64,000 bases of DNA from NCBI GenBank assembly GCA_027972325.1, contig JAPMOS010000026.1:436681-500680 (forward strand). Reading direction: 5' to 3'. Both the position numbers and the translations under genes were made by a program. The DNA comes from Paratrimastix pyriformis. Taxonomy: Eukaryota; Preaxostyla; Paratrimastigidae. The stretch's first letter is position 1, and every line of letters begins with the position of its first letter. Shown here in pieces: positions 2,810 to 50,511 of this stretch. The notes under the pieces were generated by a model, which was not told the DNA's origin, did no database searches, and was given only the letters and a program-made list of their open reading frames with translations.

Positions 2810-4721
2810 CGCCGAACTCCGCAACAACATCGGGGCCTTGAAGGCCTCCGCCCAGACGCTGCCCAACTGTGTGGTCTGCCGCCCCCGCCAACCATAGCCA
2901 CTCGTGAGATTGAACACTGCCGAACCAGACAGCCCCAATCACCCGTTTCCCTCTGCGGCGCCTCTCGTGACGACGGGGCGCCTCGCAGGGCTTCAACACC
3001 AATGGCTGGTTCAAGCACAGCTGCTCCGAGGCCAACCGCGGCCACTGGACGTCCGCAACGCGTCACCCTTGTCTCCCTTCCGAGCTCCTCATTCCTGCCC
3101 CTGCTCGTCACACAGCTCCGATCCGGCGTGCGGCTTCTATCGCCGCACCGATGGCTGGGAATTCCTGCAGGGCGTCGACTATGGCGGCTGTGACATCTGC
3201 TGCCGGTCCGTGGGCGTCGACACTCCACACAGCCTGACTTCCCATCCCGCCCAATCATCATTATTCCTCTCTCACACACACACACCAGGGCCGACCTGTG
3301 CAACAACATCGAGGCCTTGAAGGCCCACGCCGCGACCCTGCCCAACTGTGTGGTCCGCCCGCCCCCGCCCTGGAAGGGCACCTCCCAGACGAAAGGTTAT
3401 GCTGCTGGACCCGCAAGGGATCCGTCACATGGCTTGGGATGGCCCGCTCACGCGCTCTCATCGCATGGCCGTTCTTCGACTCACCTGCTTCGTGACGCGA
3501 TACCCCCTCCCCTGACCCGCTCACTCCATGACCCGCTCACCCCCTGACCCGCTCACCACCCCCCGACCCGCTCATCCCCTGACCCGCTCACCCCTCCCCT
3601 GACCCGCTCACCGGGGGGAAGTTGGGAAGTGGGGGTCCTAAGTTCGTGGAATGTTTTCCGGTCGAATGTCGATGACAAGAGCCGGACGACGGGACGGGGA
3701 CCGGGACCGGGACGGGGACGGGGACGGGACTGACGAAACTCCCCTTGGCCTCATCCATCTCCACGCTCTCTGCGCTGCGCAGGGCTTCAACACCCTCGGC
3801 TGGTTCAAGCACACCTGCCCCGAGGCCAACCGCCGCCACTGGACGTCCGCAACGCGCCCACCCACCCCAAATCTCCCTTCCGACGGACTCACCCGTGTCC
3901 CTGCCCCTGCCCCTGCCCTTGCCCTTGCACTTTCTCCGACATACAGTTCCGACCCTGCATGCGGTTTCTATCGCCGCACGAGACCCGCTCCCGCTGCGGC
4001 AGCCCCGGCCTCGGATGGCTGGGAATTCCTGCAGGGCGACGACTATGGCGGCTGTGACATCTGCTGCCGGTCCGTGGGCGCCAAGACCCCACACACCCTG
4101 ACCCATCCCAACCCATCAACATCATATTCACACACCCCAGGGCCGACCTGTGCAACAACATCGAGGCCTTGAAGGCCCACGCCGCGACCCTGCCCGGCTG
4201 TGTGGTCTGTTGCCCCATTTCCCCGTTCCAACCACATTCAGCATCCAGTCACCAGCAACACCGCACGCACGGACACTCGGGCCCATCAAAACGCCCTCGC
4301 CACGGGGGATTCCTTCGCCCACGGGTGCAGTGACATTCGTGCTGTCTCTTCTACCTCTCTGGTTTTTTGTTTTCCCGTTACTCCTTTCCTTCTTTACGAC
4401 ACGCACACACACCCCAGACTCCACACCTGCCTGTACTCGCCCTCGATCTCAAGCCGCCCCGTCCTCACCCATTTCCCTCTGCTGCGCCTCTCGTCAGGCG
4501 GGGGCGCCTCGCAGGGCTTCAACACCAACGGCTGGTTCAAACACGCCTGCCCCGAGGCCAACCGCGGCCACTGGACGTCTGCACGTGCCCACCCCCAAAA
4601 TCTCCCTTCCGACGACGTGCTCACCTCTGCCCCTGCTCGACACAGCTCCGATCCGGCGTGCGGCTTCTATCGCCGTGTGCGCCCCGTGCCCGAAGTGCTG
4701 CTGGCCAACCTCGCTCTATGA
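2810..4721 (+). CDS. Cys-rich protein of three tandem three-exon modules (3' part of gene)
   Basis: Nine exons form three copies of one module. Exon A is 2810-2873, 3289-3352 and 4141-4204; exon B is 2989-3050, 3783-3844 and 4515-4576; exon C is 3116-3205, 3947-4069 and 4646-4721. Each A exon is 64 nt and each B exon 62 nt, and every A-B-C-A junction keeps frame. A reads NNIEALKAHAATLPNCV, B reads GFNTNGWFKHACPEANRGHW, and C reads SDPACGFYRR then GWEFLQGDDYGGCDICC. The second C exon carries an 11-residue Pro/Ala insert; the third ends early in a stop at 4719-4721. Unspliced DNA is full of stops, but splicing at GTCCG/GTCTG donors gives about 70 residues per module with six or so cysteines. 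I do not recognise the fold; extracellular Cys-rich repeats are likely. No start codon is visible, and earlier modules may lie upstream of the LINE remnant. Confidence 0.8.
3490..3615. repeat. CTGACCCGCTCACC minisatellite in intron
   Basis: Seven to eight imperfect copies of a 13-15 bp unit in the intron between module exons A2 and B2. A GACG/GGGACC repeat follows at 3693-3735. Confidence 0.8.
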
Positions 4722-4897
4722 GAAAGGTCTCTCTTGCGGCGGTCGTTCTCCTTGACCTCCACCGGTCTCGTGTTGCATTTTGCAGGCTCCTTTTGCTTGT
4801 TCAGAACCGGCCCATCCCCGCTGAACGCTGCGGACACATCCTGGCGTTCTGCTCCGCTGGTTGGTGTGCCGACCGAACGTTTTTTTAATTTGTTTTT

Positions 4898-4973
4898 GGC
4901 TAATCCTCCAGAGTCTTGATGAAATTTTTAGGGAAAAAAAGGCTAATCCTCCAGAGTCTTGATGAAATTTTTT
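4898..4973. repeat. 32-bp direct repeat in AT-rich spacer
   Basis: The string beginning GGCTAATCCTCCAGAGTCTT occurs at 4898-4929 and again at 4941-4972, followed by A/T-rich sequence. It sits just downstream of the Cys-rich gene and just upstream of a tRNA-like sequence. It could be target-site or internal duplication. Confidence 0.8.
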
Positions 4974-5045
4974 GGAAAAAAAAAATTAGAAAAAATTTTT
5001 AGCCAAGACTCCCAAGGTGTGCCCCTACAAGGCTGTTCCTCAGCA

Positions 5046-5129
5046 AAAAAAAGCTATTAGAAGTTCGGGGAATTGAACCCCTGGTCTTACGTATAGAAAA
5101 CCAGCAATCAACCAGCTGGACTATGGGAC
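5046..5129 (-). tRNA. tRNA-like pol III element (not a canonical tRNA)
   Basis: On the minus strand a good A box (TAGTCCAGCTGG) and B box (GGTTCAATTCC) are about 45 nt apart, followed by a T-run (5046-5052), the usual pol III terminator. A D-arm-like CAGC/GCTG stem is present. The anticodon arm is an over-long hairpin (CTGGTTTT/AAGACCAG), and the two acceptor strands do not pair. It is therefore more likely a tRNA-derived element or pseudogene than a working tRNA. Confidence 0.4.
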
Positions 5130-7380
5130 ACATAAAGACAACAACCGCAGAGAGAGGACAGGAGGGTGATACGATGAGCGATAGCCGAGGACATCATTCT
5201 TCCCATCAACCAGTGAGCCTGCGTCCGTCTGCTCCTGTGCCGTCAAATGGCTGAGCATTGTGCAATTCAGCGTCATGACATCCTGTGGCACCACGTCGGG
5301 AGTTCGGCGGGGCGGCCCCGGGTGGGAGGTGCCGCAGCCCAGACGAGGCGCCACTGGGCGGGCAGCTGGGGCGTCAGCGTAGTGGGCAGCCAGATGGCCG
5401 AGGGGGAGCGGGCATGGGGTGGGACGCATGCTGCTGCTGCAGCTGCCGGAGGGCGGCCCCGGTGGTGGTGAGCGCGGCTCGGGGCGCTTGTGTCTTTGTC
5501 CCCCACGTCAGGACGACCGCCAAGAAGCGGGCGAAGAGGCAGTGCGGCTTGACGACGGGTATGTGTGTGGAGCATGTAAGAAACCAATCGAGAAGGGGCC
5601 TGCTGACTGGGACCACGCCGCAGGCCCACAGGCGCATGGTGCACAGGTGTGGTTGATGACACGGCGATGGCAGGTGGAGCCGGTGTTGGAAACGCGGGCG
5701 GTGCTGGGGGGGGACCGGGCATGGCGAAGCGAGTGCCATCAAGGAAGGGGGGGCCCGCATGAGGAGGCTCGCACGATGTCGGAAGCCGGTGGATCCAAAT
5801 GGCCGCCGTGGGGATGATCCGGAGACTGGAGGGTGAGGGTGGGTGGGGAAGACGGTTAGACTTGGAGGTCGTGTTGTGGTGGTGGGGGGGTCGTGGGGGT
5901 GGTGGTGGGGTGGGAGGTGGGGCGGGAGGGGGGGAGGGAGGAGAGGAGGGAAGGAAGGAAGAAGGAAGGGTGGAGGGGTGGGACCGGCGGGGAGGGCGTG
6001 GCCAAAATCCGGACCAGCCAGTAAATCACACGAAAGTCAACGCGGGAAGTGGACCAGCCCAGGGAAGAAGCACTGGTTGTGCGCGACCACTGTGCAGCAG
6101 TCCACTGCCAGAGATGCGGCGTATTTGCACCAAGCAACATTGAGGCACTGCTGGCCGCAGGTGATCGTAGATGATGTAAGAGCGATGGTGATGGCTGAGC
6201 ATCCGTTGGGCCGCATTGCGGAAATAAATCGCATTAAGCTGAATGGCGCCTCAAATGCGCTAAGACTGAAGAGGAGGAGTGCGGAAAGGTTAAGAGATTG
6301 AATTGAGTGGGATGGCAGACCTCGTCAACGTACCAAGTGATTCCAATCGTAGCACGCCGTTCACAGAGAACTCCAAGGGACCATCGCGAAAAAGGAAGCA
6401 GGGCACTGGAAATGCCAGAGATTTTTAAAATTTCCGGAGAGGCTCGAACCTGGTTTTGGTTGGCTGTTTTTTTTGTGGTGGTTTTTCAGGCGGCGGAACG
6501 CCATCCACCACACAGAAAAAGGTCGCGGAAAAGCAGAAGCAAGGGAAGTCAAGTTTCTTTCACCCACAGATCAATCCCACCATTTTTTGAGCATCTTCGA
6601 TCACTTTTTGAAGGGTGACATTGGGTCGACGTCATCTCAGAAATGATCCTGTTGAGTTGGCTGAAGTTAGCGTGGGATCAATTGGTAGCACACCTCCAAT
6701 TGATAGCACAGTGTATGGTCATATTGTCCTCTGCCAACAAAAATTCGATATCATCCACGCACCTCTGACGATGAGTTCGTGAGTTGGGTCTGAAAGAGTC
6801 GATGCCCACTCGCAGGTCAATAAGTCTTGGGGGGAAGGAAGTTTCGCGCCGATTCTGTGAGCCGATCTTGAGATTTCGTCATGAACGGAGAGAAAAAGAC
6901 AAGCGCCGACAGGATTCGAACCCACCACAACTCGGTCAAAAATAAACGCCTAATCCAACTTGACCATAGTTCCAAATTACACATAACCTTCAGGATGGGC
7001 AACACCCAAAAGGAATCCGCACCCTCGAGGCCACACCAGGGAATTCGATCGCACTGGCGAGTGGTCACCCTCCAAAAACTCACTTGCCAGTGAATCTGAC
7101 CCACCAAAAGTGTTTTGGTTAAACCTCCCCGTGCGAAAAAAGGGCGCTCTGAAAAAGTCGGTACTCGATATAATGTCATGCCGACTCACCTGCCCTTCAA
7201 AAAAAATCAAAAAAATAAACTGTCTTCACAGATGTGTTTGCTTTGATTTCTACAATTTTTTTGGTCGTTTCTGAAAAAAATCGAAAACTTTCTCAAGACT
7301 GTGAAGGAATAGTCAAAATTTAATTTGTTTTTTTAATTTGAATTTACTGTCTCTGGGTGTCGTAAACCAAAAACGATTCT
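5130..7380. other. Gene-poor AT-richer spacer, no confident gene
   Basis: Nothing here joins into a convincing protein. Weak hints are a plus-strand CGACKKPIEKGPADWDH segment near 5568-5620 (Cys-x2-Cys then Asp-His, faintly HNH-like) and a plus-strand open stretch ending at 6301 (AEINRIKLNGASNALRL). A G-rich tract lies at 5878-5990. An isolated B-box-like GGTTCGAGCC is on the minus strand near 6432-6445. Confidence 0.5.
6892..6972 (-). tRNA. tRNA-like pol III element (degenerate)
   Basis: The minus strand has a strong A box (TGGTCAAGTTGG), a strong B box (GGTTCGAATCC) and a TTTTT terminator just past the 3' end. The T-arm needs wobble pairs and no acceptor stem forms. Same class as the element at 5046-5129. 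Confidence 0.4.
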
Positions 7381-7702: not shown

Positions 7703-16420
<8,718 letters not shown>

Positions 16421-16780: not shown

Positions 16781-18302
16781 TTACTTGACCTCAGCCGTCC
16801 CGATGCCTCCGAGCGACGCGGCCTCCGCCCCGCCCCGGACCTCCTCCTCTGTCGCCTGCCGGCCCTTCTCAGCCGCCCCGGCCTCCTCGTGCGCAGCACC
16901 ACCAGCCGGCTGGGGTCCCGGGGGCATGAGATCCTCGTCCGTCAAGTATTCCACCAGCCGGCGCCAGTAGGCCGGGGCGGCAACCGGGGGGCAGGCGGCC
17001 ATCCGCTCATCGCCCATCAGCTGCCGCAGGTTGACCCAGCACTCAGGGCCCGGTGCTGGGGCGCCCCAGGAAAATGACACATCACCACCACTCCCGGCAG
17101 TAGAAGCAGCTAGGGATGCGAGCAAAGGGTACAGGGGGTGGGCCTCGTCCCGGGCGCAGGCCTCCCGACAGCGGCCGAGCCACGTGGCTTTGGGGAGCTG
17201 CGGGAGGGGCCGACCCGAGGAGGCGGCCAGTTGGGCCATCAGCGCAGACCACGGAGCGCAGTGGGGGTTGTGCAGATGCACACGGGAGCCTGCGGGGAGT
17301 GCGGGGCTGTGGGGAGGAATCAATCAGGGCAGGAAGAGAAGAGAGGCACACGGAGTCAAGGTTGGGTTGTTCTTTCGCCAGACGCAGATAATGCGCGCAG
17401 CACGACATCACGATGGTGTAGGTCCTTACGAGGCAGGGACACCCGCAAACCTTTCGGGTCCCTCATCTCCGCCGGCCTGCCGAGCCCGCTTCCTCGTCGT
17501 CGCAACGGCCTCGTCAGTGGCCTCAGCAGCATCAGCCGCTGGTGGTCCGTGGTGCGCAGGCAAGGAGAACTCGGACAGGGGAAGATCCTGCCGCGGCTGC
17601 TGTTCAACTTCCTCTCGTTGTTGTTGCCGCTCTTGTTGCACCTGCTTTTCTTGTTGTTGCTGCTGCTTCTGTTGCACCCCAGTTCCAGTCGTGGGAGCGG
17701 CGGCCATCATGAGGCATTTCAAGCCCTCAACGACGGCCAGCGCCGCGAAGTCTCCTGGAACCAGCTCATACAGGGCATCGTCCTGCAACGCGGAGACGCA
17801 CGTCGTGTGGGGTGGGTGTGGGGGATGTTGGGACGGTGAGGCAGGCGTGCCCATACACTCTGTTGACGGCCCGCCAGGCTGGAGCGATGGAAGAAGGGCA
17901 GCAGGGAGCGGACCTCGGCGAAGGAGCAGCCCAGAGCCAGGCAGCCGCGCACCATCCGGATGAAGACGTCCGGCACGTTGCAGAAGCCTGACAGAAGGAG
18001 CGATCGGGGAGGTGCCAGAGAACTGGGAATGAAACCTCTTTTGTTCACGCTCCCACTCACGAGGCCGCATTCAAATAGGAGTCCCTTGGCACGTTTCAAA
18101 CTGATGGATGGATTGGACAGACTGTCCGAAGATGGTGGATTGTTCACTCAACCCCGCCCGTGTGCGTGTGTGCGTGTGTGGACGAGGGCCGGAGCGGACC
18201 GGTGCGCGAGTCGGGGCCGATCATGGGCGGCCGGATGACCAGAGTGCGAAGGCCCCAGCGGGCCTGGGCCACCTCCACCAGATGCTCCCCGACGCCCTAT
18301 GT

Positions 18303-18333
<31 letters not shown>

Positions 18334-21300
18334 GGGGGGGGGGAAGTCCAGCAGAGATCATGAAGGATGGTACAATCATCGACAGCCCCACACAAGTCAT
18401 CACTGATCCGTCAGCTTCCCGCGAAGGGGGTTTGCAGGCAGCCACGTCGGTCATGTGCCCGATGATCCGCACGCTCTCAGGCGGTTCCGATCCCATCGCC
18501 GCCTCACCTTTTAATACGGGGGAGAAGTTATGGGCCGAGATGGGTCGACAAGTTATGGGACTCCCCCCCATAATAATGCCCTCCTTCCTGGCCGCTGTCC
18601 GCCCACGTGAACGAGACACTCCGTTCACCCACAGGGAGAGGGGCGCTGGGAAAGACCTTGGACTGGGCGTAGCCCATGTTCTGCAGGGCGTCCTCGGGCC
18701 GGTTGGTGAAAAAGGGCGGAGTGGACTCTGGCAAGCAGCACACAGGGGGAAACAGAATCAGAGAGAGACAGGCAACGATTCGCACCCTGGGCAGGGATGG
18801 AGGCACGAGCAAACACCCAAGCGGGCGAGACAGGGCAAGAGGAGGCGGACCGGCGGGGATTTGCCGGCCGAAGATGCCCATCGTGGAGACGTACACCAGC
18901 GCCTGAAGAGGGAGAACCGAAAATGAACAAAGCGGCTGTATTCTGTGTGCCGATGACCCGACTGGGTCGTGCTCATGGATTTTGGCTCATAAAACACTCT
19001 CGTTTGCCTCCGCTCTGGCGGCTCTCGGCGTTTTGGGGATGTGGGGAGGCCTGGCAGCAACAGACTGCGCTGGGTTGGACGGCGAGAGCCAGCTCGATGG
19101 CGGTCAGGGTCCCCTCGACGTTGGGCGCCCGTCTGCGATGCACAGGCGAGAAGGAGCACCCAACCGGATCATTGGGAGAATCGGGCATGCAACCCGACTT
19201 TCACACGCCAACGCGCGTGTCTTTGCGTCTTGTGTCTGTCTGTGAGTCTGTCTGTGTGGATGTCTCTGTGTTTTGTTTGTCTGTGTTTGTTCGAGTGGTT
19301 TTGCGTCTCCCTGCGTATGATTGGGAGCCAACACAAGGAAGAAAGGGAGAGGATGCAAGCACCCAGACACGGAGACAGACAGGGACTCATAAGAGAGCAT
19401 ATGGTTGACGTGGGCGCCCACGTGGACCACGGCCGCGAGGCGACTGGCGAGGAGGGCCCAGTCGGCGGCAGAGAGGCCCCAATGATGCTGCTCGAGGTCC
19501 CCCGCCAGGCAGCGAACTGGCCGGAGGAGGGGAAGTATATGAGGAGAAACACAAAGACACAGCATGTCTCTTACCGGGTTGGAATCCCAACACAAACAGT
19601 TCAATTGTGGCAGTGTGCGTCAAGTGAACTTGAAAAGAGGAAGAGATCAGGACACACACCACCGACCCGAAGGGGTGGGCGCGTCGGGGAGCAGCCCGGC
19701 CGCGATGGTGGTCCGCCCGGAGAGCTCGGCCAATCGGGCTTTGGACAGGGCCGCACGGAGGCGCTCCAGAGCGGCCGGGTGCGAATGTGCCCGGACAAGA
19801 CAGACAATGTCTGCGTGCGGCGCAAAGAGAGACGGGCGTGCGCAAGACAGGGTGATTCAGGCCGCCAGATGTGGGAATGCCGACGACAAACATCACTGCG
19901 TCCGAGCAAATACACAGCATGTCTCTCTCACGCACTGGGAATGGGCGATGGGCGAGAATAAAGGCTGTCTCACAAACGTGTAACGAGGGCGTTTCCTTTT
20001 GTATTCTGGGTCACCATGACGGGGACAGTCTCAGGGGCAGTAGCCAGGGGGCCAGGCAGACCACAGGAGCCGTCCTTCCCCAGGGCCCCTTTGACCGTGG
20101 CGGCGAGCAGCCGTTCCAGGACGAGTGGCCCCAGGAACCCGGTGGCCCCCGTCAGCACGATCCAGGGCCGCCGTCCGATGTGGCGACGCACCAGACCAGG
20201 TCGCAGGTCCGCCTCATCCAGGCGCGACCAGTCCTGGCGGAGCAGGGACAGCAGGCGCGAGAGGCCGGGGGGCATGGAGGCAGCCTCTGTGGTTGATGGA
20301 GTTCCCCGCTGTGGCGAGGGGATGAGAGGCAGGGAAGAAAAGGGTGGTCAGTATGGTGATACCGTGCACTTCCAGCGCAATGTTTCGCCTGCCTGAATAA
20401 AAGTATGGAGAACATCCATCCCTTCAGCCCCCGGACAAATTATGGAATCTCAAAGTCCCATAACGTTGGGCAGATCCACAGACCAGTCGATCCAAGGTGG
20501 CGGCCAGCTCGCCGAAGGACATCAGTGCCAGCTGGGCGGCCGAGAAGGGCAGCTCGGTCAGCCCCAGATGCTCCTTCATCCGGCTGACGACCCGCATGAG
20601 CCCCAGACTGTCCAGCCCCAGCGAACCCACGTTGGTCTGGGGCGTGACGCCGCGCAGGGGGACCGGCAGGTCGAGGAGCGCTAGCAAGGCCGAAAGCTCA
20701 GGCGGCGCAGTGGGGCTGCCCGCTGGGGTCACCTGCGAGTTGCTGCCGAGCAGGGCTGCGAGCTGCGTTTGGAAACGGGTCGCGATGGCGGCACGGCGGG
20801 GCTTGAGGGAGGCGGTCAGCAGGCCGCCGCTCTCGGCTGTGAAGGGCTGCGAGGCCGCACAGAACGGGCGAACCAGAGGGCACAGAAGAGAGATGAGTCT
20901 CCCCGGCAGCAAGCAGGGGCGACCGAGGATGCTTGACAAGTCACTTGTGCGACACATCGGCAACAAACCCGCGGCCAGTGCGAACCTCCTTGCTGATGAC
21001 CACCCCGGCAGGCACCTCGAAGGGTCGGAACCCCTTGGCCCGTGCGATGCGGGCGCAGTCCTCGAGGATGAGCCGGGGCAGGTCGGGGTGGGCACAGAGC
21101 AGCTCGTACTGGCGGTCGGGCGGCTCCTTGGCGAGGTCTGGCGCCAGGGAAGGCAGAGCCTGGCCCGGGAAAGAAAGGGCGTGCACGGCAAATCCACTGT
21201 GTGATGACCATTGCCTGCGTCCTAGCAAATACACAGCATGTCTCTCTCTGGTGGACAAAGGCCCTCCATCTCCCAGGTCCCGGTGTCCGAATTTTTTTCA

Positions 21301-24189
21301 CTTTTCCGAGCTTCATCTGCGAGCCTCGCATCACAAAAAAAACCTTCCAACCAGACCTGCAAAAGGTGGGCCTGGTCGGGTACCACGACGGCCAGCACGC
21401 AGTCCATGGTGGACTGGGCGTAGAGGCAGATCTGACCGACCCACTCGGAGTGCTGGTAGGCCACCTCGAGCTTTTCCAGGGCCACAAACTCCCCTGAGGG
21501 ACACAAAGGCCAAACCGGGGCGACTGAGCGATGCAACCACAGACTCCTCGGAGAACTTACGCCAGTACCATATTAGTTGGGAGACACGCTGTCTTCTCTC
21601 TCAGTCTCTTAGGGAGTTGCGGCGGGAAGGGGGGGGGATTCAGGGAGACAGAAGCAAGAGAAGAGCGATACCAACCAACGAATCGGTCCGCCAGAAGCCG
21701 CATGACAAACGGCACGAAGCAAACGGTCCACGGACCTTGGCTAAGCTTGATGCAGTTCTTCTTGCGGTCGATGTACTTGTAGCGGCGCCCCTCGACCAGC
21801 TCGACAATGTCGCCCGTCCGGAAGAACCCGTCGGCCGTGAAGTTGGCCGCTGAAAGTGTCACGTGTGGATGCGTCGTTGGGCGGTGAAACATGATGGTGA
21901 TGGTGGCAGTGCGAGCGAAACCGCGTGGTGACGGTATGTCAGACAGAGAAGTGGCAAAGGTGGCGGTTGATCCGATGAACGCTGGCGGACCGGTGGCTTC
22001 GGGATCGCGGTAATACCCGGACGCGATGGTTGCCGTCCGGACTTGGAGTTCGCCGCGGGGCCAGGGCTGCGAATGCGAATGAAAGGGGACATCAGGCGGA
22101 GGAGAGGAGTGTTGGGCTGGGATGACGCAATGTTAGCGTGGGAGAAGGGAAGGAGGCGGCTGACAGTGTCCGTGGTGTGGTATCCCAGCTCGGGGACGTC
22201 CTCCAGGCGCAGCTGGGCCCCCGGGAGCGCCCCGTAGGAGTGCTCGGTCACGGAACCCACCTACACGCAAAGTGAGTGGTGAACGCCGACCCGGTTTGCA
22301 GTGACGAGATGAAAGTTTCAGAGGGGGAGGCAAGAAAAATGGCTACAAAACCCGTTGGGTGCGTGACCGACCTCGGTTGTTCCGTAGGGGAAGGTCACGA
22401 TGGCCTGGGGCCAGCAGCGTCTGATCCAAGCCAACACCTCGTCGCTCGTGGGGGCCGTGGCCACGCTCAAGGCCTGGATGCGCGGCCCCAGCACCGGCCT
22501 GATGTCTGATTCGGCCTGGGCGGTCGCCAGTTGGGTAATCTGGGCATGGGTGCGTGTGGAAATGTGCGGCAGGTGTGCATGCCAGTGTATTTTGAAAGTT
22601 GAATGGGGGGGGGGGGGGGGGGAGGAGGGGGAGGAAAGGGCAAGAAGGAACGAAAAAGGGGAATTGGCGGGGAACGGGGCATCTCGGGCATGGGCCACGG
22701 GCATGAGGAAGGGAGTTCGCGGATAGACCAGTTCCTCCGTCCAGTCCTGACTCGCGGCTTCGTCCATGCCCGGCAGGCCACTTCTCGTTTCGGATGTTGC
22801 TTTGCTCCCCATATAGGTGGCTTCCTCTCCAGCGCCGCCGCCTCCTCCTCGGGGCAGAATCGAGCAGTGACGCCATGCGGGTGCCATTAGCCGGCGCCAC
22901 AGGGGCACCGGACCTCCCGGGGGCATGCCCTGCCTGCGCCACTCGGTCAGGGCAGCCTCCAACTCGCTCCGGCGTGCGGCCAGAAGCCCCCGGAAGGCCT
23001 GGTGGATGTGCAGATAGAACCGGGGTGACTGGGCCAGCATGGTCGGCCCCAGGGACTGCAAATCCTCAAACAAAAACTCCCGCTCGCGCCGTGCAAAGCC
23101 GATCTGTCCGCCGGCCATCGCCACCATGGCCACCATGTGCCGCTCCAGTGCGTGGCCCAGCGGGGCGAAGGAGATGTGCACGCAGGGATTCGGCATGGAG
23201 GCCGTGACAGGCCCGGTGGTGCGGTGGTTGAAGGCCCGATCGGTCAGCACGGCCCCTTTGGGGCTGCCGGTCGACCCCGAGGTGAAGATGACTGTGTAGA
23301 TGTCATCGGGCTGCCGAGGGACGGGCGCAACGACCTCTTGGGGGGGTTTGAGGAGGGCACTCCAGGGTAGGACGATGCAGCTGGCGGGAAAGGAGGAGGC
23401 CGGGGGAAGATCTTCAGGAGTTGGGGCATCGATGACGACAATCACTCGCAGGGACGGAATGTGATGTCTACCCAGAATGTCGAAGAGTGGTGCCGAAAGA
23501 TTCCCGAAAAACAGACGAGTTGAACACATCTGAGAGCCGGGGAAGCAGCGCCTGTTCGATCATCAGGGTTCGACTCTCGGTATTTTCCAGGGCGTATGCG
23601 ATTTCATCTCTGTCTGCTTCAACAGTGAGAACTGTATTCGGTATTGCCTGCCGTGAGCACGCCCAATCGGCCATCACCAGTTCGGGCCGGGGGAAAGACC
23701 AGAGGGCACAGAATGTCCCGGGAGTCAAATGGGCGACTGAAGCGAGATTCGAAGCGATCACGACAAGTTCGTCAAAAGCCGCTCGATACGTTGCCCATTT
23801 CCAGGAACCACCGACAGACTTACCAAAAAGGGGTTGTGTGGCATGAGCTGTGAAAGCTTTCTCAAGTGATTGCCAAAATGTTGCTCCGCGAAATTCAGGG
23901 CCCGCAGAAGTTCGAGTTCTTGGTCCTGCTGGAGGCAAAGATTCCATCGGTTGCGAACGCAGGTTCAAACCAGACCGGCGAAACTGTTGGCAGAACCGTG
24001 GGGCCGAGAGACGTAGTTGATCGGCTGCACAGCTTCCTGAACATCGATTTCTTTCTGTTCGAGAGGCCCCACCCAATAGAGAGATTCTACTTCAGGTTCG
24101 TGGCCGTGGCGGAGGACGATCCCGGGTTGGATTTGACCGCTCGGCGATCTGTCGCGCCCAGCTGAACAGGAGGGGAAGTGGGGGACCAA
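16781..24189 (-). CDS. Carboxylic acid reductase (A-T-R three-domain enzyme), 20 exons
   Basis: Activates a carboxylic acid with ATP, loads it on a phosphopantetheine arm and reduces it with NAD(P)H to the aldehyde. Spliced length is 1404 residues. Exons in transcript order: 24189-23976, 23928-23517, 23467-22729, 22539-22372, 22260-22165, 22066-21991, 21849-21736, 21493-21357, 21159-20986, 20846-20484, 20308-20062, 19810-19667, 19516-19381, 19132-19081, 18902-18851, 18727-18657, 18296-18200, 17987-17914, 17782-17443, 17289-16781. The adenylation domain (~80-715) has TSGSTGSPKGAV, YGTTE, FRTGD and DRKKNCIKLSQGEFVA, the last very like bacterial CARs. The carrier domain (~750-831) has GLDSLGL with the pantetheine Ser. 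The reductase (~865-1404) has VLTGATGFLG and the catalytic YAQSK. Exon 19 holds a Gln/Glu-rich insert. A Lys2-type aminoadipate reductase is the main alternative. The end of exon 3 and the start codon are the least certain points. Confidence 0.87.
18316..18343. repeat. G-run (pure C tract in sense of the minus-strand gene)
   Basis: About 26 G after a TG repeat, in an intron of the reductase gene about 20 nt upstream (sense direction) of the acceptor of exon 17. It reads as an all-C polypyrimidine tract. Confidence 0.7.
19906..19929 (-). repeat. Conserved intronic motif, copy 1
   Basis: The plus-strand core GCAAATACACAGCATGTCTC (plus TCTC) is preceded by CTGCGTCC. It is identical to the copies at 21225 and 59600, each inside an intron of a minus-strand gene in the same sense orientation. 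A diverged copy lies at 19551-19572. Confidence 0.8.
21225..21248 (-). repeat. Conserved intronic motif, copy 2
   Basis: Same 24-nt core as 19906-19929, in the reductase intron 21160-21356, about 65 nt upstream of the acceptor in sense direction. Confidence 0.8.
22604..22622. repeat. G-run (C tract in sense of minus-strand gene)
   Basis: About 18 G in the intron between exons 3 and 4 of the reductase gene; pyrimidine-rich in transcript sense, roughly 60 nt upstream of the acceptor. Confidence 0.7.
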
Positions 24190-24450: not shown

Positions 24451-24529
24451 GGCATGTGAATGTCAAAAATCTTGGGAAACCAAACCAAATCAGGAGTCGA
24501 TCAGGGGGGTGCCTAAAGATCGTCCGCGT

Positions 24530-30203: not shown

Positions 30204-33200
30204 ATGCCAACGGCCTCGACGCTGCTAACCCTGGTTTCAGCGTCCTTGTCCTGTTTGGGGACGTTAACCGTTGTGTTGATCTATTTACTACGCCTACGGA
30301 AAAAAATCAACTCGTTTCAGTTGCGCCTCATCTTTTATCTTTGTTGTTCCGACTTTTTCGCCTCAATATCGCACTTCGCCCCCTCGTCGGCCTTTTGTCT
30401 TCCCTCTGCCCTCTTCCAGCAACAATTTTTTGTCTCGTCCTTCTGTCCGTTCCCTTTCGGCGACCACATTTTACACCGCCTTCTTCATTCCAGGCTGGAT
30501 CCTGATTCTTTGTGTCAATCAGTTTCTCTTGGTGTGCTTCAACAAACGGAACACACAGAAATACGAGCTCTTCTACCACCTCTTTGCTTGGGGCTTTCCT
30601 TTCACGACCGTCATGGTTCTCATTGCCTTTGGGGCCTTTGGCCCTCTGGATGAGACGCCTTGGTCTGCCCCTCCCCTCTCTTTCTTGCTCTCCTCGCGCA
30701 CTCATGGGCCAGCCACCCCGCCCCCTCCCCGTCGCGCGAGTCTCTCCTTGCATCGTCAAGAACGACCAGTCACCCCTGCCACACCCTCACGCAGGTGCTG
30801 GATCACCCCGGACTTCACCCTGTTCCGGTGGCTGTTCTTCTACGGGCCCCTGATTGCCATCCTGTTGACCGTGCTCGCCCTCTACCTCTGCATCGTCGTC
30901 AAGCTGCGCCGCTCGCTGCACGATGCCCGCAACGAGGCCCTCACGGCCCAGCTGATGTTCTCCGTGTATCTGGTCGTCTTCGTGGCCCTCCGCACGCCCA
31001 GCGTCGCGCGGCGGTCCGTATTTTCTGTGGGTCGGAGCGGTGGCGGGCCGCTCGCGAGGCCCTGTGTCGGCGAGTAGGGCGGGGCAATCTGCACCGGCTG
31101 CCGTGCCGGCCCCCCTCACCGCTTGGTCCCCCTTGTGTTCCCTGGGCTTCTGATGGTAGGCTGCTTCAACTCACAACGGAGGTCGACCCGAACGGGTTCC
31201 TGGCCCTGCTGCACAGTCTCTGCTCGCCCCTCACCGGCTTCGCCAACGGTCCGCCGCCCGTCCGCCAAACAAGCACGGTCTCCTTCCGCTTTCTTTGCTC
31301 ACACAAATTTCCCACTCTGCACCCCCCGCCGCACCCCCCCAGCTGTCCTCTTCTTCCTGAATCAGCAAGTGGCCCGCGTTCTGCGGCACGCCTCCTACGG
31401 CTTTTGCACGCGCCACTGCCCCCGCTGCGCCCGCCGCGCCACGGCCACGCGGCCCCTCCTGCAGCCACGCAGCAGGCGCTCACTGGCCCAGGCCCTGAGC
31501 CAGACCTGCTGCTATTGCTGCTGCTTCCCGCCCGACATGTCCGAGGCCGCCGCCGCGGCGGGGGCGCGTCCCGACGAACGGATCGAGTGGGAGGCCCTCC
31601 TCGAGCGCGATGAAGACGTCTGCACGACGGAGGGGGTGCCTCACTTCCATTCCGCTCCTCAGAGGCCACAGCAGACAGTAGTCACAAGGGGCTGGCCCCT
31701 CATCCCCACCTTCTTTTTCGTTCCTCAACCCTTCACATCCACTCTTCATCGGCCACACAACAGACAGTTTTCCCTGGGCCTGACATCTCGTTCACACCTT
31801 CTTTTTCGTTCCTCCACCCTTCCTTCCCATCCGCTTGCTCCCCGCATAACAGCAGGAGCACCTTCCCCTCCTCGACGACTCGGTCAACGGGCCCGCTTCC
31901 CGCCTGATGCCCTCGACCCCCGCCACCCCCGCCGTCTCGCGGCCCTTCGAAACGGCCCTGCTCTGCCCGCCCAGCGCCAGCCTGTCCTCGAGCGAGTGGG
32001 CCGCCCTGCCCCACACCACCGCCTGCGCCCCCGGCCGCCCGGGTGCACTGCGGGTCTGGACGGGCACGTGGAACATGGCCAAGACCAGGCCCGGCCTGGG
32101 GATGGAGGACTGGCTCCGGCCCGCCATCGAGACCGACGCCGATGTGGTCGCGGTGGCGCTGCAGGTCTGGGGGAGGGCCGAGGCGTGTCATTGATGGGCC
32201 CGTTTTTTCTTGCCCTGAGAGGGACGAGAGGCGCACATCCGCTCTGGCCCTTCTGCCTCCACAGGGCACACCAGCACCTTCTCACGCACATCCGCGCTCG
32301 TCTTCTCTGCGCAGGAAGCCCCCAAGGCCGACGTGCCCCTGGGGGAGCTCATCGACCGCGCCCTCGCCCCCGGTCCGTGGGCGGCCTGCCCCTCCGACTC
32401 GTGGGCCTGGCCGCGCCTCTACTTCCCCACCGCCCCCCTCATCAATCCCCTTCATCCCCTCATCTATACCTCTCTCATCCACCCGCCTCCACCCCCTCAG
32501 CCATCCCCTGCCTCCATCCCTTCATCCATCCCTTCATCCATCCCTTCATCCATCCCTTCATCCATCCCTCATCCATCCCTCATCCACCCCCTCCCACCTT
32601 TCAGATTACCTGCGCTTGGCCCAGCCTAATGTCTGGGAGATCCATCTCTTCGTTTACATCCACCGGCGCTGCCTCGCCGGCCCCACGGCCGACGCGCCCG
32701 GGCTGCCCGAGGGTCCGAGCGGGTTCCTGGCGGCCCTGGGCGCCCTGAGCGAGCTGAGGGTGGGCACCGAGCATGCCGGGTTCGGCCGCATCCTGGGCAA
32801 TAAGGTCCGACCCCACACCACCCACCTTTGCCACCCACCCCACCCCACCCTCCCCACCCCACCCACCCCCGCCGGCCACTGCGCAGGCTTTCCCATGTTC
32901 TTTGAATCACCCGTTTTCGTCGCGCGTCTCCATTCTCCTTCTCGTCCCCGTTGGCGACTGGGCTTCCAGGGCGCGGCGGCGGTGGGTTTCCGGCTGGCGG
33001 GGACCTCGCTGCTCTTCCTGAGCGCCCACCTACCGCCCTTCCCGAAGAACTTCTCCAAGCGCAACGCGACTGTGGCCCAGATCTTCGGGGGCCTCTCCAC
33101 GGGCATGCAGCCGGTTTCGCTTCAGCCCTGGGCCAAGGAGGCACCGTCCCCTGCGGCCGGGGCTGAGGCCGGGGGACCATTGGTGAGACGAGTGGCCGGG

Positions 33201-34882
33201 GTCCGCCTCCCTCGCCCCCATTCCTCGCCAGACGGCAGACCCACACACCAGACAGGCGGCCCGAAACACACCCCTTTCTCCCCTCCTTACGCCCTTTCAC
33301 CTCTCCCCTGCTGCAGGCCATCCCGAACGAGGCCGTGGAGATTGCCCACCAGTACGACCACGTCTTCCTGCTGGGCGATCTGAACTACTCCATCGACCTG
33401 CCCCGGCCCACCATCTTGCAGTCCGTGCAGCACTGGAAAGCCGCAGGTCCGCTCCCTTCGGTTGGCGCGCCATTCGGCAAATGTCGCCGGCTCTCTTCGT
33501 TGTTTGACTCATTTCCGCGCCCTTGCCCTCACGCCCTTGTCCCCTCGCCCTTGTCCCCTTTCTCGTGGTTCTCTTTTGTATCGATTTCTGGCCACACGTT
33601 TTCTCCGCCTTTACCATTTTCCTTCGGCCACCCTCTCCGTGGCAATCTCCTTTCTCCCGCCAGCCGGCCAGCACGATCTGAGCGTCCTGCTGGAGAAGGA
33701 CCAGCTCCGCCAGGGCAGCCGCCAGCTGGGCTTGCTGGCCGAGTTCCACGAGGACGCCGAGCGCCTCTTCCCGCCCACCTACAAGCTGGCGGTGCCCCGG
33801 TCGGAGGGCGACCCGTGGAAGTACAACCCCAAGCGGGTCCCCGCTTATACAGACAGGTCCGACTTGGGCTGACGGTGAGCCTCTGCGCCGCGTTTGTGTG
33901 CGCAGGGCGGGCGTGTTGCTTCGCAGGGACGGTAAGGCTTTTTTTGAGTGTTGTTCCCCCCTGGCTTCCTCCTCCCCGCAGAATCCTTTGGCGGACCGCC
34001 GACTCGGTCTGGTCGCCTATCCGCCCCCTGGGGGGCCTGACCGCCTGCCCGGCCTATCTCTCGAGCGACCACGTCCCCCTGCGGCAGATCTTCCAGGTCG
34101 GTCCCCGAAATCCCCGCTTTTCGGGGTCTTCGCCTGCTGACACGGCAAATCTCATGCCATGGGCTCACCGCTTCCATGCCTCCCAGATCGCACACAGTCG
34201 GATCCCCGCCCCGAGTCCGCTCAGCCCCGAGCAGGCCGAAGCCTTGTCCGCCCACATTCGGCGGCAGGGCGGCTTCACGGTGGTGGTGCAGTTCCAGGAC
34301 GTCTCCGTCCCCAAGCTCGAGGCGCTCTCCCCGGACGGCAGCGCCGATCCCTTCCTCAAGGTCCGCGCGGGTTATAACCCTCCCTCCCCTTCCCCCACTC
34401 CCACGCCCACCGACCCAGCCGCCAATCTTCTTGGATTTCAATTGCATTCTGCCTCCCGTTCCCCCCGAGCGCAGATTGTCTCGTTCCCCTCTGGGGATTC
34501 CCTGACGGCCCCCGCCCAGCGGATGACCCTGAGCCCCTCCTGGTCGAGCCCGGCACTGGCCGCCCTACGGTTCCCCTTCGCCCTGCCCGCGGGCCGCCCC
34601 CCCGGCGGCGCCCCGACCGAGGTTCTGCTGGCCCAGGCCTTCGCCCAGATCCGGCTGGTGCTGGTGGTGGGCGACATGGGGCTGGTCGACGAGGACGGCA
34701 CCATGGGCCAGGCCGCCATCGCCCTGGCCGGGGTGCGCAGCTGGGGCTTCCGCCCAGGGGGGGTCGAGACACCCCTGCCCGGCTTCAAGCCGCCCGTCCA
34801 GCTGCGCTTCGTGGAGATGCTCACCCGGCTGGGCAGCCGGACGGGCGTCGTCGAGGGCACCTTCGCCGTCTTTGTCGAATGA
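30204..34882 (+). CDS. GPCR (cAMP receptor-like) - inositol polyphosphate 5-phosphatase - C2 fusion, 14 exons
   Basis: Exons 30204-30444, 30494-30662, 30795-31013, 31160-31248, 31343-31617, 31856-32164, 32315-32372, 32605-32804, 32970-33200, 33317-33446, 33664-33856, 33982-34096, 34187-34360 and 34475-34882 give 936 residues. Residues ~5-246 form seven helices like class E cAMP receptors (FCWILILCVNQFLLVCF, LFYHLFAWGFPFTT, WCWITPDFTLFRW). A Cys-rich juxtamembrane tail follows (CCYCCCF, likely palmitoylated). Residues ~385-745 are the 5-phosphatase: GTWNMAK, FLSAHL, LLGDLNYSID, PTYKL, YNPKRVPAYTDRILWR and SSDHVPL, all core active-site blocks. Residues ~760-936 begin like a C2 domain (FTVVVQFQDVS, DGSADPFLK). 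The receptor tail in exon 5 joins exon 6 in phase without a stop. Oomycetes have GPCR fusions with phosphoinositide enzymes; this is a separate domain order. All 13 donors read GTCNG. Confidence 0.87.
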
Positions 34883-35213: not shown

Positions 35214-38200
35214 CTACGGCGGTGTTTGCTCCCTCGAGGCCCGTGGCGCGGGTGGGGCCTCAGGCCCCGAACCAGGACGGGGCTGGGGGGACGCCGCGGC
35301 CGGTGGGATGTCCTCCTGCTCCTGCTCCTGCTCCTCCTGGGGTCCGCCCGACCGGCAGCCGGTGGCCATGGCGAGCTCCTCCGGGAGCAGGTCCTCCTCG
35401 CGCAGCCACAGGAACCGCGGGGGCCCCGGGTCGCGACGGACCCACTGGGCGGGGGTGGGCGATCGGAACACGGGAAGGAGGCAGTGAGTCATTGAGCGGG
35501 ATTGGCGGGCGAGCGCGGCAGGGGGTGGGGTGGGTGTGGGTGTGGGGTGTGGGTGGGGGGGGACATAGCATCGTGGCGCGGTGCCGGCCGACCTTCACGT
35601 GAAACTCGCGCTGCCGGTCCGGCGGTTCAGAGGCCCACGTGGTGGTGGGGAGAGGGATGAGAAAGGCGAATGAGACTCCTGCCATGATCGGGCCTCTCCT
35701 CCACTTCCTCCATTCCCCTCCTCACACCGTCCAGTCGACACGGCCCCGCCCACCGCCTCGCAGACGATCGGGGCCCCGTCGGCTCCGGCCACGATGCGCT
35801 CCTCGAAGACCCGCTCGACGTGGCCCACACACTCGTCCTCGCGGGCGCTCGCCTGGGGCGAATCGGCCTGGGACTGCATGTCCTCCTCGGCCGGCAGCTG
35901 CGCCCCCCCACACACACACACAGACGGCACAGCGCGGGGCGAGCATACCGGTGGTTAAGGCGAAGCAGCCGGATCTCGGCGCGCACGGATTGGCACCCCA
36001 ACCGGCAACGAAGCAGAGCCCAAGGGCCGGAGCGACAGACGGATGAGGGCCGGTGCTGATGGGCCGCGGGCTTCAGCCGAAGTGCGTGCGCTTGCTGGAC
36101 CTGGGGGGCGGAGACGCAGCGGGGGCAGGGGGGGTGAGGCGCTCGTGCGGCCATCGAGGGCGAAGACAGGAGAAGGGGGGCGGCCGGGGCTGAAGCAGAC
36201 CGCCGCCAGGAATGAGGCCTCTTCGTCCTCGGGCAGCCCCGTCGCGCCTCGGGCGGGGCCCTCGGCGCCGGGCAGGTTGAAGACCTGCCGCTTGAGGGGG
36301 GCCGTGGGCGAGACCACCAAATGCGCCTGATGGCCAAACAGGCCGGCCGCAGAATAAATCGGAAAAAAAGTGGGTTGAGGGGACTGGCACGGGGGGTGCA
36401 ATGGGAAGTGGACCTTGCCTGGGACGGAAAACCACTGCGGGACGCCACCACGCCTTCGTCGGAGGGGCGGGAAAAGGTAGGCTGCACGCCCACAGCAGGC
36501 CACCACAAACGTCAAAATGAGGCCGCAACAATGGGGGCTGAACGTTTTTCGGGAAACAGGTCCCCCATGCGAACAGGCTGAGTGAACGCTGGGGGCGGAC
36601 CCAGCTGTAATCGGACGTGATCCCGCTCGGCGAAGCAGCCCCCGCCAGCGACTGTGGTCGTTCCCAGGGTGCGGGCCATCTCGCCCGTCCCGCCGCCGCC
36701 CCCGGCACCGGACCCGCCCATCCCGCCCGGCCTCAAGGGGGCCACCAGGCCCCCCGCAGTTTTGGTGGTGGCCCCGCGGGCGTGTCGGGTAAGGGAGGTC
36801 GCCTGGGGACCGACCAGGCCCCGGGCCAGGGAGGCTGCGCGGCCGGGGGTCGAGTCGCGGCTGGTGCAGCTGGCTCGGAGGGAACCACCCTCGGTGCCGG
36901 GCGCAGACGAGGCAACCAGAGCCAAGGAGCGCTGGCCGCCTGTGGGCCAGAGGGGTGGCGAGGGGTGACGGATGTGTTGCGAGGGCGCCGGGGCGAGGGG
37001 GTGGTGACTGACGGCGGTGCGTGTTGCAGGGGGGGGCACAGACCCTGGCTCAGCCCCACCGTCGGACTGGCGACCGTCGTTCGCTTCGGGGCCACCACCC
37101 GGACCGACCCGCGGCCGGCGCCGCTGATCGCCGAGGCGCGGGTGGGCGTGGGTGTGGGGGCGGGCGAAGGGGGCGGAGCCGATGTGGCCGATCGGACCGC
37201 CGGCCCGTCGTCGCTGGTCGAGGGGATCGGGGAGCCGGGCGGCAGGTCGGGTGTCAGTGCGGTCAGTTCCGTCAGGAAGACTGAGTTGGGCGGGCCGCCG
37301 GCGGCCGCCGGCTGATCCGGGAGCGTCGAGACGGGGGTGAAGGTCAGGCCGGCCCGGGAGCGGTAGGCTGTCGATGGGGATGAGAAGTGGGGTGGGTCAG
37401 CGGGTGGGTGGTGAGACCGAAGGTCATTTTGAGCTGAGGCTGCCTGCTTCCAACAGACCCTCGAATTGCGAGTACCCGGGGTAGAAGTCGGCCAGATCGC
37501 CATCCGCCTCATCACCCAGCCGGAGCGTGTTCTCTGCGATCGGCCAGAAAGACAGAAAGACGGGGGGCACTATCAGAGAATGCACTACTGGCCGCAGCCC
37601 GGCCACACCCGAGCCTGAAGGCCAAAGGGAACGCGCAAGTGCATCGCCCCAGACAGACAGACAGACCGTCGGCAACGGTGTACGGGGCGGCCTCGACGCC
37701 GACCCACTGGGGCAGCGGATCGCCACACTCGATGGCCAGCCGGAGGGCCTCCTCGAGGCGCCCCTGGGTGGCCAGGACCAGGTCCTGCTCGGCCACGGCG
37801 TGGTTCTTCCAGGCCCGGGCAGGGGCTGGCGACCGGGAGGGCGGCGGCAGGGTGGACTGCACGAGATGAAGTAGGCGCGGAAGATCAGAAACCCAGGTGG
37901 AAACGGCGCCCGTCACGCCACGTCGCAACACCCAGCGACATCCCCGGGGCGGGACGGACCTTGGCGCGGGCGGCCCACTTCTCGGGGGTCCCGGCGGGCT
38001 CTTGGGTGGCGGGCGATGGAGCGGGCGAGGTGGGGCCCGAGTGGCGGGCGACCCAGAGCCAGGACTGGGGCAGGGTCGGGTGGGGGTCGAGCTGCCCCAG
38101 GGGGATGGAGAGCGTCCGGTGGGTCGGAGTGGGCGGGTTGGAGGGAACGGCCGTGGAGCTGCACACAACGGGATGGAAGCGACGTGCGATGGTGGGTGGT

Positions 38201-38437
38201 TGATGCCATTGAATGAAAAAGAGAACACAACATCGTTTCCCATCGAATACGGAGCAGAACGGAGTCTGGGATTGGATCTTTTTTGATCAGGAAACTGTAC
38301 ACTCCAAGTGTCGGATGAGGCGGGGTGCCGGATGATGCGCCCTGGAGATGCGGGGCGGGAAGACGCATGGTGGGCGTGGGATGGGTGTGGGATGGTGATG
38401 TGTCTGTGCCTGTGTCTGTGTCTGTGTCTGTGTCTGT

Positions 38438-38479
<42 letters not shown>

Positions 38480-41400
38480 GGGGGGGGGGGGGGGCAGACT
38501 CAGGTGAAGCGCCGGGCGGCGTGGAGGAGCGGCCGCCACTGTTCCATTCCAGCCAACGCCACGCCCAGAGGAGAACAGAGTGAGGCCCCGCGTTTTCGGA
38601 GGGGAAAGGCGGGCAGACTCGGGCACGGGCGTTGGCGCCACGGCAGCGCGCACCAGCCCCGAGACGAGGTCCACGCTCGAGACGACCGCGGGTCGGATGC
38701 CGGCGCCCAGGTCGACCCGGTCCCCGGGCTGCACGCCCCGGACCTCCTCGGGCTGGCGCTGGGTGTTGGGTGGCGCCCCGATGGCCGAGACGCCCGATGA
38801 ATGCGATGATCGGCCAGAGCCTGGATGCGCGTGTGTGTCGGAAAGAAGGAAAGAAGTGTTTGTTTGTGGGGGTCCGCTCAGGTTGGGTCGTATGCCGTCA
38901 TGCTTTGGGGAACCGGGTTGTGCGCGAGTACGGCGACAGGAAGTGCCCGGTCGCAGGAAGGGCCATCACTCAGGCGGACCGGGCCTGCTGGCGGAGGGTA
39001 TTCGTCGATCGCTCCGGGCGGAGGTCGGCCCTGGGCCCCCCGTACGCCGGGTGGAGGCAGGGGCGGAGTCCTCTGGGGGTTCCCCGCACAGCTTCAGAAG
39101 GGGCTCAAGGTAGGCCTTCTCCAGCGCGTAGGAGGGCGTCCCTTGGATCTGGGGGGGGGGGGGGGGGGCAGAGCCAAACCTGAGCGAGGTCCCAACGGGG
39201 AACGGGCTGCCGCATCGCTCGGTTGCCATGCCGTCCCTCTTCCACCTCCTCCCCCCTCCCATCCCCCCCCATCCCCCCCCTCCCTTCCTCCCCTCTCCCC
39301 CCTCCCCTTTTCCCTCCCTTCCCCCAGACCAGGCGATACACATCCAGTGCGGCGATCCGTGTCTTCTCGTCGACTTTCTCCTCACCGCCAGCCTCCGGCT
39401 CCTCCGCAGTCGGCTGGCCGCCCTCGCTTAGCGCGGCCCCTTCGGGCGGCCCTGCGGCGGCGCGGTACTCGGGCGGCGGGAGGGGCAGCGTCTCGTGGTA
39501 GAGGAACTCGAAGCTCGGCAGCGAGACCTCGCTCGCGGGCAGTGAGCCGAGCGAACGGTCCCGCTGGAGAAAATCCAGGAGGAAGGACAGGTAGCTCTGT
39601 GGTGTGTGTGCGTGTGTGTGCGTGTGGGGGAGGGAGGGGGGATGGAGTGAAAATCTCACGCGAGATGGGACGCTGGCTCGCTATCACCCTCACACCGCTG
39701 AGCTCCAACTGTCCCCCCCCCCCCCCCCCCTCCCCCCAAGAGCCACGGGCAGGCAAGACATGTGCCGCGACACGAGAATGGTGCGGGGGCCCGGACGAAC
39801 CGTGATGGCGTATGGGGGCATGGTGGCGAGGTGAGCAGAGGGCAGCCCATCCAAGACGGGCGCCGCCCGGGCCAGGGACTCGCGCAGGGTGTTGGGCGGC
39901 AGGCTGAACCGGAGCCGGGCCGCAAGGAGCACACACAACTGCACCCCAAGGGGGAGGAGAGGGCCCGTCCGTGAGCGGCGGCGTGCTCGAGTTCACTCCG
40001 GCCTCACCAGGCACAGAACGAGAGCACGAGGATCTGCCAAGAGGACGGAAGCAATGCGCCTCTGCGCAGCCAGGCCGACCTGATACCGGGCCAGAGGCGA
40101 GGCCCCCAGCACGGCGGCCACGTAGAAAGGCGGCTCGGGATCGTCCACCGCGCGCGGGCTGGCCGTGGCGCCCAGCGCCGGGCCCCCAAACTGGGCGTAC
40201 ACCTCGACCGTGGGCGGGTCCCAGCTGGCACTGGCGGAGGAAGCGGGCGAGACGGGGACGGTCATTGGACAGGAGTGTGAACATGAGCGAAGGAGGGGAG
40301 TGCAGCGACTGCTTTCCTCCCGCCCTGATGGGCAGCCGCATGACGGGAACTCTGGCCAAACCCGAGCTCCCCCCCTCACAAGGCAATCAGGCCGCTCCCT
40401 TTCCGCCATGCAGCCGCCACGTGACGAAATGCCACCCCATTGTGCCAAGGAGGCGGAATTCCCACTTCCTCCCACCGTCACAGACTACATGCGATGGATG
40501 GCCTCGTAGTGGGTGGCCGTGAAGCGAATCCGGCGCTGCTCGGCCACGCGGGTCTGCATGGATGCGGGGAAGGAGAAAGGTCGGAAGGAGGAGGGGCAAG
40601 AAAGGAAGAGTGGGTGGCGGCGGGTGAGAGATTGAGTGGGCGGGTGGGTGGTGGCGGGTGGGTGGGGAGCTGGGGAGGTCGTTCGGAGCGCTCAGAACCA
40701 CTGGCATTCCCCCCCGCCTGCATACGCCTTCCTCACCGTGGTTAGTTGATGCGGGCATCGTCTCCCTCCAGACCGAAGGCGGGTCACGGGCGAAGTGCCT
40801 AAAGAAGGCCTTGGCGCGCGGGGTGATCCTCAGTGTCGAAGACAGCGGGCTGGGCGCTGCGTCGCAGTAGGCGCGGAGCATGGCGTACTGCGAATGAGTG
40901 GTGAGACAAGGGTGAAGAGGATGCTTCCTCAACGCCCGGTCGCCCCGACAGACAACTTCCGTCCCGGGCCCTCTTGTGCACCATGCCGCGGCGTGCAACC
41001 GCTCGGCCATCGAGACAAACCACCCGTCGAGCACCCAGACCCGCGGGAGCATGTGAATGGCCAAGGGGCGATCTGATGGTGCGTTTGTGCGTGCGTGTGC
41101 ATGGATGGGGGGGAGAGGAGAGATCAGAAAGAAGGATTTTGAATCGGGAGTCGGACAGTGTTCGCCGAGTTCTGGGTTCCCGACAAGGGTCAGCTCGATG
41201 ATTGACATATGTCGCAGCTTGATGACCTCGGGCCAGGTGAGCGCATTTTCGCCCAGCCACAGTCGGCCCAGCCCAGCCAGAGGTCGGACAGCATCCAGTG
41301 AGGAAATCTGTGAAACATCGAAAAAAGAGACTCTCGGGACAGACAGACCCGGTTTTTTGTGAGGTCCAGGTTCCACAAAGAGTCGCATTTCGAGAGAAAG

Positions 41401-41650: not shown

Positions 41651-50511
<8,861 letters not shown>

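Follow-up and report, generated by a model that had tools for sequence, protein, structure and literature searches.

Known departures from the canonical 5′ splice site

In canonical U2-type splicing, the donor GURAGU is read by a U1 snRNA that carries ACUUACC, a sequence that can be thought of as frozen because any change to it would reduce pairing with thousands of donors simultaneously. The departures from this arrangement summarized here are taken from the accessible portions of the cited reports. In Saccharomycotina, +4U has been linked to loss of METTL16 and SNRNP27K without a change in U1 or U6, the +3 position is nearly constant, and ACUUACC was present in every U1 candidate identified, spanning 227 of the 230 genomes of this group and 9 of the 10 outgroups (PMC10581693). 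In the animal Fritillaria borealis, 95% of introns fall outside GT/AG, yet the 5′ end of U1 is reported to be strictly conserved, and m6A and U2AF paralogs are implicated (PMC13326754). Cyanidioschyzon merolae reportedly lacks U1 genes and has an altered U6 box (via PMC10581693 and PMC11732430), while the diplonemid S. specki has a single U1 variant, its 5′ end altered by a C stretch, next to a conserved U1 (PMC12621601). Ostreococcus lucimarinus uses divergent GTGCGTG donors in which +3 is still a purine, and the accessible part of that report suggests a matching snRNA complement without showing it and reports no corresponding U1 change (PMC2483917).

We compared these systems with Paratrimastix pyriformis, starting from a window of 64,000 nucleotides (the whole stretch of DNA analysed; contig JAPMOS010000026.1, positions 436,681 to 500,680, forward strand) and extending to the eukaryotic assembly that holds it (56.06 Mb, 495 contigs). 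Shared with canonical U2-type splicing are probable GT-AG intron termini, G at −1 and +5, YAG acceptors (49 of 52), the five snRNAs, the U6 ACAGAGA box, the U2 GUAGUA element and the U5 loop. The differences are that U1 bases 5–6 are AG instead of UU, and donor positions +3/+4 are CY instead of RA. As in Saccharomycotina, +4U faces an unchanged U6 ACAGA box, but here +3 is C, U1 is altered, and METTL16-like and SNRNP27K-like genes are kept; the U1 base-5 change taken up in the accessible text of PMC10581693 exists here, together with a second at base 6. The genome-wide break with the canonical donor resembles that of Fritillaria borealis, although intron termini are probably still GT-AG and U1 itself is altered. 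Natural change in the donor-reading snRNAs is shared with C. merolae, whereas here U1 is kept and altered and U6 is intact. S. specki likewise has a U1 gene whose 5′ end is altered, but in P. pyriformis all U1 copies found are altered and the donors match them. No comparable joint switch of donor and U1 was found in the literature searched (subscription journals lay largely outside the search). Sequence comparison makes it very probable that this organism has a major spliceosome with a rewritten 5′ splice-site code, in which donors and U1 have switched together and U6 has been kept.

Donor consensus from spliced alignment

Introns were placed with our own protein-to-genome spliced aligner, which accepts any GT or GC as donor and any AG as acceptor and charges one flat intron penalty. 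Human beta-actin served as one reference, alongside human PRP8 and PI4KB (from solved-structure alignments), and an intron was retained when both flanks were conserved and the donor was GT. For the actin and actin-related genes and a PI4KB-like gene in the window, 37 of 62 aligner introns were kept and 25 failed the filter; one actin-like gene (L073) was left out because its alignment was intronless. Together with those of PRP8, this brought the pooled set to 52 well-supported introns, spread over 11 genes and 10 contigs: 15 from PRP8 and 32 from actin and actin-related genes, all on nine contigs other than that of the window, and 5 from the PI4KB-like gene.

At +3, 49 of the 52 donors had C and the other 3 had T, with A or G in none. 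The +4 position was T in 31, C in 16, G in 4 and A in 1, +5 was G in 48, +6 was T in 27, C in 19, G in 4 and A in 2, and −1 was G in 40. The donor five-mers were GTCTG (27), GTCCG (15), GTTTG (3) and others (7), so that GTCYG accounts for 42 of 52 donors, compared with 5.5% of the window's GT sites (binomial log10 p = −43), while GTRAG, within the GTRAGT consensus of U2-type introns, accounts for 0 of 52. Acceptors were CAG (34), TAG (15) and AAG (3), intron sizes ranged from 45 to 458 bases, and a candidate branch point, CTNAY, lay close to the 3′ end of 36 introns out of the 52 (raw count). On the basis of these alignments, we take the donor consensus to be G|GUCYGY, with AG|GUCUGU as the predicted best-pairing form. 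A preliminary description of the window, built on about 95 introns placed by hand, had reported donors that were nearly always GTCCG or GTCTG, with C at +3 and G at +5 in about nine of ten cases and A at +3 in none; donors of this kind were confirmed by an alignment free of any such motif, both in the window and on nine other contigs.

The PRP8 gene (G000:C456, loci L064 and L065) matches human PRP8 in two halves at 1847 and 2093 bits, and its spliced alignment covered 2197 residues and contained 16 introns. Of these, one whose donor was GC was dropped as an artefact of a gap in the human PRP8 reference used. The remaining introns all had GTC (15 of 15) and +5G (15 of 15), with C (10), T (4) or G (1) at +4. 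The GT...AG termini in the main alignment are imposed by the aligner rule (GT/GC plus AG). An alignment of PRP8 without boundary constraints gave the same intron lengths, with 3 of 15 introns exactly on GT-AG and 12 of 15 shifted by 1–8 bases. Coding-only gene finding on PRP8 placed 10 of 15 donors exactly and predicted 17 introns, an accuracy that is only fair.

In the window itself, the partial model of the PI4KB-like lipid kinase gene (43795..50379, plus strand) comprises a GTCNG coding chain from about 43795, with PI4KB homology at 49142–50379. Spliced alignment to human PI4KB supported five introns on this strand: 49255..49387 (donor GTCTGT, acceptor TAG, both flanks conserved), 49512..49596 (GTCCGT, with flank scores of 10 and 10, just at the cut-off), 49704..49775 (GTCTGT, between VKDR and HNGN, flank scores 30 and 34), 49909..49985 (GTCTGG) and 50080..50153 (GTCTGG). 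The aligner proposed a sixth intron here, but its donor was GC and it did not pass the flank filter.

These alignments bear directly on whether GTCYG could be an artefact of choices made in ambiguous cases or of GC-rich composition, a reading that we regard as exceedingly unlikely. The preliminary description did concede picking GTCYG where placement was ambiguous, and GTC is frequent, at 31.5% of window GT sites; even so, +3C in 49 of 52 introns of the conserved-protein alignment exceeds that background (log10 p = −21), and the boundary-free PRP8 introns were equal in length to the 15 usable ones and displaced by 0–8 bases. The 25 rows that the filter removed had 9 GC, 12 GTC, 2 GTT and 2 GTG donors, and with the 16 GT rows added back, +3 was C in 61 of 68 and a purine in 2 of 68. 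An artefact would also make the independent match of U1, described below, mere coincidence.

Donor classes in the window genes

Five gene regions of the window were chained to coding sequence with donors limited to one of 16 GTxNz classes at a time, using a codon model trained on the coding sequence of PRP8 and five actin-family genes, with the 52 introns as background. The GTCNG chain scored best in 5 of 5 regions, with a summed score of 1476, compared with 1032 for the next class, GTGNC, and with 938 for GTCNC, 775 for GTGNG and 393 for GTANG. GTCNG is also the class richest in sites (211, against 189 for GTCNC, 166 for GTGNC and 29 for GTANG), so part of its lead over rare classes such as GTANG reflects site number, while its lead over the comparably sized GTCNC and GTGNC stands.

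Two coding-only comparisons fall on the side of an artefact. In a whole-window version of the class comparison, GTCYG (1878) ranked below GTRAG (2471) and below no introns at all (3279), although this test was flawed since its chains crossed genes. When the same per-gene chaining was run with donors unrestricted, +3C appeared in just 32 of 53 predicted introns, which agrees with the modest accuracy of the method on PRP8. Against these stands the per-gene result for all five regions, read with the site-number reservation above.

The gene models built on GTCNG donors included an RND/MMPL transporter (8023..16408, plus strand; 17 introns joined in frame, 866 aa), a reductase with AMP-binding, PP-binding and NAD_binding_4 domains (16784..24060, minus strand; 15 introns joined), a GPCR (Dicty_CAR) and an inositol polyphosphate 5-phosphatase in one frame (30538..34870, plus strand; 12 introns joined), and a further gene (35307..41280, minus strand; 13 introns), for which GTCNG was again the top of the 16 classes. 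For the first three, the preliminary description had given 22, 20 and 14 exons. In the 3 genes tested of the five chained, GTCNG models regained Pfam domains that GTRNG models lose. The MMPL score was 233.9 bits with GTCNG donors versus 45.3 with GTRNG; the reductase reached 102.6 bits for AMP-binding, 90.8 for NAD_binding_4 and 25.8 for PP-binding versus no family with GTRNG; and the GPCR-phosphatase gave 115.9 bits for Exo_endo_phos2 and 53.5 for Dicty_CAR versus 17.1 and none. From these models and alignments, we infer that the GTCYG junctions are used in splicing.

U1 snRNA genes

Rfam covariance searches covered the whole assembly, and the best candidates were scored (for U1, the best 41 of 992), so that the snRNA counts are lower bounds: at least 8 genes for U1, at least 9 full genes and one fragment for U2, and at least 2, 7 and 4 genes for U4, U5 and U6. 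All 8 U1 genes found open with AUACAGACCUUGCUUGG, where the U1 covariance model has AUACUUACCUGG, and the 5′ end is AUACAGACC in 8 of 8, versus the usual AUACUUACC. Read as AUACAGACCU, this end has A and G in place of U and U at bases 5 and 6 in every gene detected; ACUUACC has become ACAGACC, and among the donor-pairing bases only these two differ.

When the organism's own U1 was used as a DNA query, the search returned the same 8 places and none besides; given the candidate limit of the covariance search, additional diverged copies could exist. The copy tested (L005) spans all 166 of 166 positions of the RF00003 model, stem-loops included (E 4.4e-13), and has CAUAAUGUUUGGU at the Sm position. 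Across the 8 copies, E-values ranged from 2e-10 to 4e-13 and scores from 50.8 to 60.2 bits, all short of the Rfam gathering cut-off of 69.5 bits. All 8 genes (L005–L012) are preceded by TCCCATAA, at a distance of about 60 bases, and have AATTC immediately 5′ of the start, which argues for genuine, separately placed U1 genes. The genes are presumably expressed, with an RNA that would mature at AUAC. The TCCCATAA-type element may serve promoters generally or may belong to a repeat. By eye, words like CCCATAAT and TTATGGG also occur in the window near 12750, 14810, 18550 and 20450, between and within genes.

Pairing of the altered U1 with donors

In the usual register, U1 bases 3–10 lie opposite donor positions +6 to −2. 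The two altered bases of U1 therefore oppose the two switched donor positions, A5 pairing with +4U and G6 with +3C. For 52 of 52 donors, the computed duplex with this U1 was more stable than that with canonical U1 (means −8.8 versus −3.4 kcal/mol); the 472 GT sites of the PRP8 region, true donors included, averaged −3.7 kcal/mol with this U1. Over eight positions, the mean number of pairs was 6.29 with this U1 versus 4.79 with canonical U1, the count being higher for 47 donors, equal for 5 and lower for none. Of the 16 dinucleotides possible at bases 5–6, AG gave the most Watson-Crick pairs (6.08 of 8), while with wobble allowed GG, with G at base 5, reached 6.60 and beat the 6.29 of the observed AG.

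The snRNA genes found also speak to the suggestion that these introns belong to the minor (U12-type) or some other class with separate machinery, to which we give almost no credence. Their donor does differ from GTRAGT, yet it is not the U12 donor consensus, RTATCCTT; genes for U1, U2, U4, U5 and U6 are present, and U1 complements the GTCYG donors.

One feature counts against a rewritten code of the major spliceosome, namely that C at +4 (16 of 52) and +6 (19 of 52) makes an A-C mismatch, since both U1 and U6 have A opposite these positions. Position +4 is a pyrimidine in 47 of 52 donors and +6 in 46 of 52, C being a frequent substitute for U opposite A. This pattern would fit an addition to the rewritten code in which A5 (and A3) of U1 is converted to inosine or modified in some other way and so pairs with C at these positions; C could equally be just tolerated in a GC-rich genome, and we give RNA modification only a slim chance.

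U6 and other spliceosomal components

All 4 U6 genes detected have the box ACAGAGA (96.7 bits; the RF00026 cut-off is 44), and a change in U6 as the cause of the donor shift was rejected on this ground. The U2 branch-pairing sequence GUAGUA and the U5 loop CGCCUUUUACUA were likewise unaltered in the copies read. The preliminary description had held that a GTCYG consensus would need altered U1 and/or U6 pairing, and had pointed to the U1 and U6 bases facing +3 to +6. It is U1 that proved to be changed at these bases, from UU to AG at positions 5–6, while U6 already complements GUCUGU through its unchanged ACAGA box. Duplex energies with U6 AUACAGAG were −6.9 kcal/mol for GUCUGU, −1.5 for GUAAGU, −2.4 for GUAUGU and −2.2 for GUCCGU, so that any gain on the U6 side applies to GUCUGU more than to GUCCGU. 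The U1 sequence AUACAGA is identical to the U6-box heptamer, and the donor would then be read by both snRNAs through one heptamer.

The strength of the U6 duplex raises the alternative that the donor shift was set at the U6 step, with U1 of little weight and its change due to neutral drift or carried along as a passenger. GUCUGU complements the unchanged box far better than GUAAGU does, and evidence that U6, not U1, fixes the cleaved site is reviewed in the accessible part of PMC11732430. A drifting U1 would not be expected to have changed in 8 of 8 genes found, with its donor-pairing changes confined to the two bases that face the switched positions and with bases that pair there; moreover, ACUUACC is invariant in all U1 candidates covered by the accessible text of PMC10581693 despite a +4U switch in several lineages, so such drift is rare. 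We consider this alternative improbable. A donor code re-tuned to the unchanged U6 ACAGA box, with U1 rewritten to the heptamer of U6, a hand-over between identical readers, and METTL16 and SNRNP27K retained, is well favored by the comparison.

A METTL16-like gene is present as a partial match (positions 166–272 of 299), its identity given by that match and an NPPF motif, and a SNRNP27K-like exon carries RQYMNRKG, which we take to sit at the place of human SNRNP27K M141. The data do not support an origin of +4U in the loss of METTL16 or SNRNP27K, since both families were found, and the route differs from that in Saccharomycotina. The accessible text of PMC10581693 reports that m6A on U6 A43 destabilizes A:U pairs, and together with a METTL16-like gene this sits awkwardly with +4U. 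A PF06220 search of the assembly yielded no U1-C zinc finger, although an intron within the domain could conceal one. The sole PF06220 (zf-U1) match, L074 (G000:C86:24790-24960), looks to us like WBP4/FBP21 and not U1-C.

Proposed mechanism and significance

In the proposed scheme, the U1 snRNP would bind the donor through U1 bases 3–10 and then pass it on to the ACAGA box of U6, which is able to pair with positions +2 to +6 of GUCUGU. A U1 variant with AG at bases 5–6 would have spread across the U1 gene family as donors moved from RA to CY at +3/+4, a co-switch that may have been aided by GC-rich composition and by the pre-existing ability of U6 to pair with CU. Such a compensatory co-switch is the likely history, with the order of steps inferred.

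If this scheme is true, the U1-donor code can be rewritten, and P. pyriformis provides a natural, complete counterpart of the compensatory U1 experiment in which METTL16 and SNRNP27K have not been lost. It would open to test the passage through intermediates, the division of donor choice between U1 and U6, and the opposition of m6A-modified U6 to +4U. In this genome, genes would be misplaced by annotation software tuned to GTRAG donors.

Additional observations

Opisthokonts are marked by an insertion of about 12 residues in EF1A, and the EF1A found here is without it (MPWWKGPTLLGALNNL), so that a link to Fonticula alba, a candidate on account of its GC content of 70.3% (PMC10752896), is not supported. 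The best solved-structure matches of actin were 'Major actin' entries, presumably those of Dictyostelium, and animal cytoplasmic actins, in a near-tie (688.2 and 688.0 bits). Within the window, two tRNA-like stretches noticed by eye on the minus strand (about 5060–5130 and 6900–6970) are possibly tRNA-derived repeats; neither ARAGORN nor Rfam at its gathering threshold called a tRNA there. Positions 1–2520 hold a broken reverse-transcriptase-like coding stretch (FADDIALL motif, by eye), after which about 42 C stand in a row. In the GTCNG-donor model of the GPCR gene, a 7TM receptor akin to slime-mould cAMP receptors lies in frame with the 5-phosphatase domain, which would constitute a receptor-phosphatase fusion.
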